This document shows positions 1-31,935 of a DNA stretch of 38,617 nucleotides, piece after piece. This DNA is from an archaeon (GTDB taxonomy: Archaea; Thermoproteota; Nitrososphaeria; Nitrososphaerales; CADDZS01). The stretch is taken from the NCBI GenBank assembly GCA_029850555.1, contig JARCRS010000071.1, positions 1 through 38,617 on the forward strand, read 5' to 3'. A program made the position numbers and the translations under genes. The notes under the pieces are model-generated. The model had not been told where the DNA came from and searched no databases. It was given only the letters and a program-made list of their open reading frames with translations. Every line of letters begins with the position of its first letter. Positions within the stretch are counted from its first letter, which is position 1.

Positions 1-132
1 GCGTGCATCGAAAGGATCGACCGGAAAAGCATAGTGGCCTCTCGCCGTTCTGGCGAAATGGGAGAAATGTCTCTTTCAACTAAAAGAGGGACTTCATAGT
101 CACTGACCCGGGTTCAAATCCCGGCCGGAGCA
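1..132 (+). tRNA. tRNA-Glu (CTC), 5' end outside the window, intron-containing
   Basis: Only the 3' part of the gene is in the window. The T arm is perfect (stem 108-112 with 120-124, loop TTCAAAT), followed by the acceptor strand CCGGAGC (125-131) and discriminator A132, the usual archaeal tRNA-Glu ending. An anticodon stem GTGGC (34-38) with GTCAC (99-103) leads into loop CTCTCG with anticodon CTC at 41-43, and the variable loop is TGAC. Closing the 7-base loop needs A98, so about 53 bases (45-97) must be intron near position 37/38. I could not draw a clean bulge-helix-bulge for a single intron, so there may be two nested ones. The D loop (7-28) is also about ten bases too long. The matching 5' acceptor strand GCTCCGG is not in the window. 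CCA is not encoded. Confidence 0.72.
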
Positions 133-141: not shown

Positions 142-1021
142 ATGGTATCTAATCTCCAGACCAGCTCCGACTTTAACATAATAGAAAAGACGATGGTAGT
201 AGAGGAACAAGAAAGGCCAAGGCCCCCTTTACAAAAGCGACGACCTAAAAGACCAAGAGCGAAGTGGGGTACTCTTGGTCTTCCAAAACGTGTGCGTAAT
301 GAGGATGACATTTACAACTACGAATATCGGCTAAACAATGCATTCTCACATCTATCTAGGTCAGAAAAAATCTCGCCTCATGACAAGGAACTAATCAAAC
401 AATTTTACACGAGAATACTTCAAGCTCAAGGAGTCAGTATAGGAAGAAGAGCGAAGTACTTGCTTCACTTGAAAACAATAGTAGAGAATCTTGGCGTAGA
501 ATTCGAGAGTGCAAAGCGCGAAAATATTGAAAACTTCATGGCTTGGTTAAACTCCCAAAAATACAGTCCCTACACTCGCGTAGACTACATCACTTTCCTG
601 AAGCGTTTTTACAAATTCATTCGCACTGGTACAGTTGACAAAGAAGAACCTTTTCCGCTTGTACGCTGGCTCAGAAAGACAATCAAGCCAAACGAAAGAA
701 AACAACCAGAGTTTCTAACTCCTTTAGAGGTAAAGTCGATGATTGGAGCCGCTGATAGGTTAAGGGACAAGGCTATGCTCTCTGTAGGCTACGAGGCGGG
801 CTTGAGAGCGACCGAGCTTCTCTTGCTTAACATTGGAGATATTTCATTTGATGAGCGTGGGGGCAAAGGCGACTGTAAGATATGGCAAGACTGGGGCACG
901 ACTAGTGAGATTAATTTCTTCAGCCGCTATTCTTTCCTCGTATCTTTCAAACCATCCGAGACGCAATGACCCCTCATCTCCACTATGGGTCAATCTCTTG
1001 GGCTGCCAAGGCACATTGTAA
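142..1021 (+). pseudogene. Tyrosine recombinase/integrase, frameshifted and C-terminally truncated
   Basis: The first frame opens with a basic N-terminus, then a SAM-like core-binding region (about residues 60-170: ENFMAWLN, YSPYTRVDYITFLKRFYKF). The start of the catalytic domain follows, with the first catalytic arginine in YEAGLRATELLLL. At the GGGGG run 859-863 the sense passes to the next frame, which continues smoothly with AKATVRYGKTGARLVRLISS and SSPLWVNL, then ends at 1021. The H-x-x-R box and nucleophilic tyrosine are missing, so the product cannot be an active recombinase even if the frameshift were a sequencing error. The family is the XerA-like/archaeal integrase group. Its position ten bases from tRNA-Glu suggests it inserted the flanking element. 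Residue 1 is the ATG at 142. Confidence 0.8.
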
Positions 1022-28760: not shown

Positions 28761-29183
28761 ATGAGTACGAATCCCAAGGGTGGAGGAGGGCCGAGGCATG
28801 GAGACCCAAACGCTCCTCCTCCGGGTTCAGAGCCGCCGTTTGATCGCGCCTTTGTTCGTCACCAGCTTCAGATTCTTGCATGGATCCGAGTCGGACTGGG
28901 AGCGTTATCCGGGTTTATTGCAGGACTTCTACCATTTAACACCAATCCCGGATTTTCCTTTAGTTCTAATTCATATGTTGACATTTACATCGCGGTGTTC
29001 ATTTACATCGCATCATATTATCTAGCAAAGTATGGGATGGGAATTCATCTGCCCTACAAAGACAGAAACAAGCTGATTACTCAAGGGATTGGTGGGTTCA
29101 TCATGATGTTTCTATTTATTTGGTTCTTATACAGCACTTATTGCTTTAGTGTACACTATAGCTGTCCAAGTTTCGTGTTTTAG
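28761..29183 (+). CDS. Three-helix membrane protein, possibly EMC6-like
   Basis: The protein has 140 residues. A Gly/Pro-rich cytosolic start (about 1-28) leads into three hydrophobic helices: AWIRVGLGALSGFIAGLL, IYIAVFIYIASYYLAKYG and GIGGFIMMFLFIWFLYSTY. The first has an R..LG..sG..AGLL pattern reminiscent of EMC6 and its archaeal relatives, which pair with EMC3/Oxa1-type insertases. This is an inference from a short motif; a generic membrane protein is the alternative. It is divergent from NFACT (159-base shared promoter region) and its last four bases overlap the convergent RadA-paralog gene. ATG 28761 fits. Confidence 0.5.
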   Translation: MSTNPKGGGGPRHGDPNAPPPGSEPPFDRAFVRHQLQILAWIRVGLGALSGFIAGLLPFNTNPGFSFSSNSYVDIYIAVFIYIASYYLAKYGMGIHLPYKDRNKLITQGIGGFIMMFLFIWFLYSTYCFSVHYSCPSFVF

Positions 29184-29947
29184 GGCATAATACCTCTTCT
29201 TTCAATGTTGAAGGTAGTAGTATCATTTTCTACAAAAGGCTGAACGATCCTCCCTTGCCTTGTGTTTCCGCGTCTTGTAAAATGTAACCTGAATAGGGCA
29301 AATTGCGAAATGATGTCTCCGGTTGTCTCGACTTCGAGCTGAGATGATTTCTTATCTTCATTTGGGAGTCTAGATCTCACAGAGTTTGTAAGGAGTACAG
29401 CTAGCTTACGAGTTAATCCAATATATGCCAGTTTACGTGCGTAGGTCGAAAGCTCGAAATGTCTAGAAATGAAAGTATCCTCTTGGTGCTGAACGTCTCC
29501 TGGGTACTCAGCGACGAAATTAGCGGTTATATCGTCAACAATGAGTAGTTTACATCGATCGAATATATCTGATGATAGAATCCGCTCAGTTGCCTCGTGT
29601 TGCTCCGCAACACTTCGGACATAGATGGAAAAGATTCGATCAAGTATCTCTTTGGGATTCCGGACTCCTCTTTCTTCCGCCATTTCAGCAATTCGCTCGG
29701 GGCGAAAAGAACCAGCGCAGTCAACAAAGACTACTCGAGGTTTTTTATCATTCCCAGGGTCTCCGAGCGAGCTTGTCAACGCATTCTGAAAGGCAAATTG
29801 CGTCTTTCCCGTTGCCGCAGCTCCATAGACATCAGTTACAGCGCATGTTGGAAGTCCGCCGCCGAGAAGGCTATTGAATGAATTAGAACCGGTATCCAGC
29901 TTCTCCGCTTTTCCTAGCGGCGAGTCAAAATCTTCCGAAAAAATCAT
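29180..29947 (-). CDS. RadA/RadB-like RecA-family ATPase (RadA paralog)
   Basis: From ATG 29947 the product has 255 residues. A GTG at 30004 would add 19 basic residues without family resemblance. It lacks the N-terminal HhH domain of RadA and starts at the ATPase core: LDTGSNSFNSLLGGGLPT, Walker A GAAATGKTQ, VVFVDCAGSFRPERIAEM, Walker B KLLIVDDITANFVAEY, and the C-terminal VLLTNSVRSRL and FALFRLHFTRRG. Such paralogs (RadB, aRadC, RadA2 types) help or tune RadA-mediated recombination. Walker B has D-D followed by I-T, unlike the DSAVAH of the RadA in this window. The specific paralog class is uncertain. It lies just before tRNA-Arg. Confidence 0.8.
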   Translation of the reverse strand: MIFSEDFDSPLGKAEKLDTGSNSFNSLLGGGLPTCAVTDVYGAAATGKTQFAFQNALTSSLGDPGNDKKPRVVFVDCAGSFRPERIAEMAEERGVRNPKEILDRIFSIYVRSVAEQHEATERILSSDIFDRCKLLIVDDITANFVAEYPGDVQHQEDTFISRHFELSTYARKLAYIGLTRKLAVLLTNSVRSRLPNEDKKSSQLEVETTGDIISQFALFRLHFTRRGNTRQGRIVQPFVENDTTTFNIERRGIMP

Positions 29948-30067
29948 TTTTGAGGTCTGCTTGCTCTTGAAGGCGATTAGGAATGCTTTTGCGATCGAAA
30001 ACACTAATTCAAAAAACTACGTAAAATGCTTAAAGAGCCTGAGCAAAATTTCGACGTCGAGCTTGAA

Positions 30068-30212
30068 GGGCCAGTAGCGCAGATCAATCCATTATTCCGC
30101 AAGCAATGGTAGAGCGAAGCATGGACAGCGCGGCAGAACAGTTCAGTGCCGAGCCTCCTAAGCCTTAATCAGTGAGAGCTGTAGGTCCTGGGTTCAAATC
30201 CCAGCTGGCCCG
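30068..30212 (+). tRNA. tRNA-Arg (CCT) with about three short introns
   Basis: Acceptor GGGCCAG (30068-30074) pairs with CTGGCCC (30205-30211), discriminator G30212. T arm CTGGG-TTCAAAT-CCCAG is perfect. D-stem GCGC (30077-30080) pairs with GCGC (30128-30131). The gene is 145 bases, about 70 too long. Removing 30137-30153 (17 bases) and 30162-30177 (16 bases) gives anticodon arm GCAGC-CTCCTAA-GCTGT with anticodon CCT (30157-30159) and variable loop AGGTC. Around the 17-base intron CGGC (30131-30134) pairs with GCCG (30148-30151) three bases from each cut, a correct bulge-helix-bulge core. About 37 bases of the D loop (near 30085-30121) must also be intron. The 16-base intron has a weaker motif and D-loop boundaries are unresolved. 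Confidence 0.75.
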
Positions 30213-31757: not shown

Positions 31758-31935
31758 GCGAGGGTTGCAGAGCCTGGTCAATTGCGCGGGTCAAACGCAA
31801 TTTTTTGCTTTTGCGCGAAACTTAAGATCGCCTATTCTGCCCTAACAAGCGGAATGGCCACATAGGATTCAGGCTGAAAGCTGATAGGGTATCCCGTCCC
31901 TTAGGGGTTCGTGGGTTCAAATCCCACCCCTCGCA
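31758..31935 (+). tRNA. tRNA-Leu (CAG) with about two introns
   Basis: Acceptor GCGAGGG (31758-31764) pairs with CCCTCGC (31928-31934), discriminator A31935. The D arm GCA-GAGCCTGGTCAAT-TGC and T arm GTGGG-TTCAAAT-CCCAC are normal for archaeal tRNA-Leu, and the long variable arm TCCCTTAGGGGTTC marks a class II tRNA. The gene spans 178 bases; about 85 are expected. Joining CGGG (31787-31790), ATTCAGGCT (31867-31875) and CCCG (31893-31896) gives the arm CGGGA-TTCAGGC-TCCCG with anticodon CAG at 31870-31872. That leaves introns of about 76 and 17 bases. I did not find perfect bulge-helix-bulge motifs at these exact cuts, so boundaries may slide and the larger intron could be two. Confidence 0.72.

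Follow-up and report, generated by a model that had tools for sequence, protein, structure and literature searches.

Here we report a tRNA-Arg(CCT) gene from an uncultured Nitrososphaerales (thaumarchaeal) archaeon that appears to be interrupted by three introns of the bulge-helix-bulge (BHB) type. Sequence comparison suggests a functional, apparently single-copy gene whose introns would be spliced from one colinear precursor, a reading to which we assign a probability of about 0.93. The gene lies on a contig of 38,617 nt (JARCRS010000071.1; hereafter the window, meaning the whole stretch of DNA analysed), which is part of a 2.78-Mb MAG of 237 contigs with 88% completeness and 5% contamination.

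Gene structure and mature product

The locus comprises the following features:

30029..30034, plus strand: putative promoter, TATA-like CTTAAA, read from the sequence, some 35 nt 5' of the tRNA
30068..30082, plus strand: exon 1, tRNA positions 1-15, GGGCCAGTAGCGCAG
30083..30119, plus strand: intron A, 37 nt, in the D loop at site 15/16, read as a relaxed BHB
30120..30136, plus strand: exon 2, positions 16-30, CATGGACAGCGCGGCAG
30137..30153, plus strand: intron C, 17 nt, site 30/31, perfect BHB
30154..30160, plus strand: exon 3, 7-nt micro-exon CCTCCTA, positions 31-37, with the anticodon CCT at 30157-30159
30161..30176, plus strand: intron D, 16 nt, canonical site 37/38, set by orthologs such as L036, L037, L045 and L055
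30177..30212, plus strand: exon 4, positions 38-73, with the variable loop, T arm, 3' half of the acceptor stem and discriminator G

The gene (30068-30212) thus consists of 145 nt, namely 75 nt of mature tRNA and 70 nt of introns. Removal of the introns of 37, 17 and 16 nt yields a 75-nt RNA that ARAGORN called as tRNA-Arg(CCT) and whose MFE fold is the exact cloverleaf. The acceptor (GGGCCAG/CTGGCCC), D (GCGC/GCGC) and T (CTGGG/CCCAG) stems are perfect, the anticodon stem (GCAGC/GCTGT) has five pairs including one G-U, and no CCA is encoded at the 3' end. An earlier sequence-only reading had proposed this isotype, three introns of these lengths, perfect acceptor, T and D stems and an excess of about 70 bases; all of this was borne out by the spliced product, and the isotype and introns also by orthologs, some of which have fewer introns or none.

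Among the splicing states tried, only the triply spliced form gave a plain intronless tRNA-Arg(cct) call with ARAGORN, and no state in which intron A was retained gave any tRNA call. The raw locus was matched neither by default ARAGORN nor by ARAGORN with intron options, and in Rfam it had no match at the gathering score and at most a sub-threshold partial match.

A pattern scan of the window genome (88% complete) found no second tRNA-Arg(CCT) gene. The AGG codon is in use, accounting for 38 of the 260 Arg codons in ten ORFs of the window. A radB-like gene (29180-30004) is divergent from the tRNA gene, and the CTTAAA at 30029..30034 may serve as promoter of the latter. The stretch CTTAAAGA is also found upstream of the ortholog in a member of the same genus, Nitrososphaerales archaeon JOPF010 (G001), where the ortholog locus lies within contig JASHNZ010000019.1, which likewise carries the neighbouring radB-like gene.

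Orthologs

In a pattern scan across 400 Nitrososphaerales genomes, the anticodon-arm region of tRNA-Arg(CCT) was detected in 43, and the full ortholog sequences have near-constant exons and introns that vary in sequence. Four orthologs (L029, L042, L171, L173) are intronless. One of these, L029, has the same order as the window's mature tRNA and is identical to it at 69 of 75 positions, including all of positions 8-48; the six differences (mature positions 5, 6, 51, 67, 69 and 70) lie in the acceptor and T stems. Other orthologs have only the 37/38 intron (L013, L014, L047, L048), the 15/16 and 37/38 introns (L050, L055), or the 30/31 intron without the one at 37/38 (L062-L065, L168-L170), while L174 combines 30/31 with 15/16. 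All three introns are present at loci L036-L041 and L044, which belong to the window genome, to five others of its family (G001, G003, G004, G005, G007) and to one genome of another family (G180). Since the introns occur singly, together or not at all, the sites are fixed at 15/16, 30/31 and 37/38.

These comparisons bear directly on a possible alternative, a tRNA pseudogene in decay, in which the extra bases would be random insertions and would never be spliced out. Such decay would agree with the failure of standard detectors at 30068-30212 and with the imperfection of two of the three splice motifs in the window copy. Against it, the whole 75-nt mature sequence folds into a perfect cloverleaf and is identical at positions 8-48 to an intronless ortholog, six genomes of the family retain the same three interruptions, with introns that have diverged and exons that have hardly changed, and the window genome yielded no other CCT gene, so that we regard a pseudogene as very unlikely.

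The same orthologs speak to a reading with fewer than three introns, in which the surplus in the D loop forms part of an enlarged D arm (GCGC...GAGC; 3' half GGTAGAGC) and ACAGC/GCTGT serves as anticodon stem. The stretch GGTAGAGC inside intron A does resemble the 3' half of a D arm, and ACAGC (30126-30130) could pair with GCTGT (30178-30182). However, the GCGC/GAGC stem is mismatched at one position and provides no place for several bases ahead of the anticodon stem, orthologs that lack the D-loop intron read GCGCAG-CATGGACA-GCGC directly, those that have it differ in the length and sequence of the intron, and the spliced forms in which it was kept were not recognized as tRNA. This pairing scheme is contradicted by the intronless orthologs, and we consider it extremely unlikely. 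A further reading takes the gene for the remnant of a split tRNA, whose exons are joined in trans, or of a permuted one, whose exons are reordered; such tRNAs are found together with an endonuclease of this type (PMC3218864). Its probability is practically negligible, as the four exons are colinear within 145 nt at a single locus and the intronless orthologs have the same order.

Splice motifs

The splice motifs of the preferred three-intron structure were scored in strict 3-4-3 bulge-helix-bulge geometry. Of all possible placements of an intron of 12-39 nt in the window gene, 1.5% gave 4/4 pairs, 12% gave 3/4 pairs and 13% gave at least 3/4 pairs. The ortholog counts given below come from related, non-independent sequences and are not to be read as probabilities.

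Intron C has the motif CGGC[AG^A] / GCCG[AG^C], with 3-nt bulges and 4/4 pairs; the sequence-only reading had already described a perfect CGGC/GCCG core for a 17-base intron at 30/31. The helix is 4/4 in 14 of 14 intron-bearing orthologs, in which the partner strand is GCCG, GTCG or GCTG and pairing is always kept. Intron A, previously noted only as an interruption of about 37 bases in the D loop, is placed at 15/16 with the motif GCGC[AG^A] / GCGA[AG^C], which has 3/4 pairs and one conserved mismatch; at least 3/4 pairs were found in 17 of 17 orthologs, and the 15/16 site is unique in L040, L045 and L050.

An AG repeat allows the third intron to be drawn at 37/38, 38/39 or 39/40 with an identical product. 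Orthologs that lack the repeat (among them L036, L037, L045 and L055), such as CCTCCTA^TCCG...GAT^AGCTG, can be spliced only at 37/38, and the 39/40 placement was rejected as incompatible with them. The 16-base intron that had been placed after the anticodon loop is thus at the canonical 37/38 site. There the window copy has 2/4 pairs (3/4 if drawn at 38/39 or 39/40), and 21 of 23 orthologs have at least 3/4. Because of the low count at 37/38 in the window copy and the mismatch of intron A, these two of the three motifs are read as belonging to a relaxed BHB type.

In tRNA-Arg(CCT) of other families (L012, L062, L063, L065, L168-L170), the D arm has another intron, 12-16 nt long and near positions 21/22. 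In the register used it has 1-2 of 4 pairs, a misfit to strict BHB geometry.

Predicted splicing machinery and order of splicing

The window genome encodes an EndA alpha-type subunit (contig C81) whose best solved relatives are 2cv8, 3p1z, 3ajv and 2zyz; it matches the enzymes of A. pernix (3p1z) and P. aerophilum (2zyz) over nearly its full length with E-values of about 1e-39 to 1e-34. As in these crenarchaeal (alpha-beta)2 endonucleases, the catalytic Tyr/His/Lys residues are retained, and K45-P46-K47 aligns with K44-P45-R46 of the A. pernix crenarchaea-specific loop, so that the loop lysine is kept as well. This lysine-containing loop has been linked to broad specificity and relaxed splice motifs (PMC6379350, PMC12397907). 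A second endonuclease subunit (beta), which is without the histidine, was assigned from sequence. The two EndA-type subunits would fit an (alpha-beta)2 endonuclease of the crenarchaeal type. An RtcB ligase is also encoded, and we infer that the endonuclease and RtcB may act on the tRNA-Arg(CCT) precursor. One genome of the window's family (G006, 94% complete) has no PF01974 endonuclease match, and its tRNA hits are of intron-containing length; the endonuclease gene is possibly absent from that assembly.

The proposed pathway is as follows. The gene, whose product would read AGG, would be transcribed as one colinear precursor, the heterotetrameric (alpha-beta)2 endonuclease would cut the BHB-type introns at 15/16, 30/31 and 37/38, and RtcB would join the four exons, one of which has just 7 nt. 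The 30/31 intron would most likely be removed first, because its motif is already formed in the unspliced RNA according to predicted folding: at least three of the four helix pairs reach a probability of about 0.86 or higher in five of the seven orthologs with all three introns, while the motif is not favoured in unspliced L036 and L037. The canonical 37/38 intron would probably come out last, since the structure by which it is recognized depends on the anticodon stem, which is interrupted by the 30/31 intron; the predicted cost of forming its motif is about 8-13 kcal/mol in the precursor and about 2-9.5 kcal/mol without the other two introns. The motif of intron A is not favoured by folding alone. 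From these models we infer an order with 30/31 early and 37/38 last, and sequential removal of closely spaced introns has already been described (PMC8450103).

Intron load of the tRNA set

Spliced alignment to reference tRNAs detected at least about 36 tRNA genes in the window genome (L066-L107), of which about 33 have one to three introns, with an estimated 55 introns in total or about 1.5 per gene. Only Ala-CGC, Gln-CTG and Pro-TGG appear to be intronless among the detected genes. This is a heuristic tally, based on T-arm pattern matches and Rfam matches followed by spliced alignment; some tRNAs are missing from it, and the boundaries of several genes, including some for Ser, Arg and Leu, are uncertain. 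The aligner is permissive (shuffled upstream sequence joined to a real T arm still scored 28-97), and low-scoring genes were counted only with support from ARAGORN and folding. The general tRNA model of Rfam recognized 17 tRNAs in the window genome versus 42 in a relative from a different family with a complete genome, and 7-23 genes in five relatives of the window's own family, where the hits were mostly longer than a normal tRNA.

By comparison, P. calidifontis has 71 introns in 46 tRNA genes, and the Thermoproteales have 0.84 introns per gene (PMC8450103), which makes the intron density of the window genome approximately comparable to the record cited for P. calidifontis. On balance we favour the view that, in a Nitrososphaerales family outside the Thermoproteales, almost every tRNA gene carries one to three introns, with a density close to the cited record and with precursors such as that of tRNA-Arg(CCT) requiring ordered splicing through a 7-nt exon.

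Two further tRNA loci were observed in the window. One lies just 1.5 kb from the tRNA-Arg(CCT) gene:

31758-31935, plus strand: tRNA-Leu(TAA), two introns, spliced product called tRNA-Leu(taa) by ARAGORN

Its introns are 29 nt (31791-31819; site 30/31, helix CGCG/CGCG, 4/4) and 64 nt (31827-31890; site 37/38, helix CTTA/TAGG, 4/4) in length, and the unspliced locus was missed by ARAGORN and Rfam. The other, at positions 1-132 (plus strand) at the start of the contig, is the 3'-terminal part (132 nt) of a gene for tRNA-Glu(CTC), with a 53-nt intron. It is identical to part of a complete intron-bearing copy on another contig (C99), from which it diverges right past the tRNA end, and is directly followed by an ORF (142-969, plus strand) with a weak phage-integrase match. 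Judged from the sequence, the arrangement of tRNA end and integrase-like ORF resembles that of an integrated element whose attachment site is an intron-containing tRNA.

Comparison with known systems

A tRNA with three introns is of a kind already known in archaea, mostly from Pyrobaculum and Thermofilum (PMC3218864, PMC8450103), and is here well supported in the Nitrososphaerales. Archaeal tRNAs with two introns are likewise on record (PMC3218864, PMC4090602). No published description of this gene or of the tRNAs of this lineage was found in the searched library of open-access papers. The present case extends three-intron tRNAs from mainly those two genera to a Nitrososphaerales family, and related families provide a series of tRNA-Arg(CCT) genes with zero, one, two or three introns, so that a single tRNA allows intron gain and loss, and co-evolution with the endonuclease loop, to be tested directly. 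Genomes of this sort also call for caution, since many of their tRNAs escape standard tRNA finders, which can distort MAG quality scores; the overall tRNA intron load of the lineage merits attention.

The sequence-only reading had associated multiple noncanonical introns mainly with the Thermoproteales and some TACK lineages. The Thermoproteales are indeed known for multi-intron tRNAs (Sugahara 2008, as cited in PMC4090602), but the host is a member of the Nitrososphaerales, and 107 noncanonical tRNA introns had already been reported for Thaumarchaeota with tRNAscan-SE 2.0, which has a dedicated BHB model for noncanonical introns and removes two or three introns iteratively (PMC8450103). These are introns of the same kind in the same phylum-level group, whereas in the window genome nearly the whole detected tRNA set appears to be affected. 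The gene shares with the multi-intron tRNAs of Thermoproteales the presence of up to three BHB introns, located at 37/38 and at noncanonical sites such as 30/31, and, at the sequence level, an (alpha-beta)2 endonuclease in the genome. It differs from them in that the host is not a thermophilic crenarchaeon, and in the combination of the sites 15/16, 30/31 and 37/38 in a tRNA-Arg(CCT) with a 7-nt middle exon.
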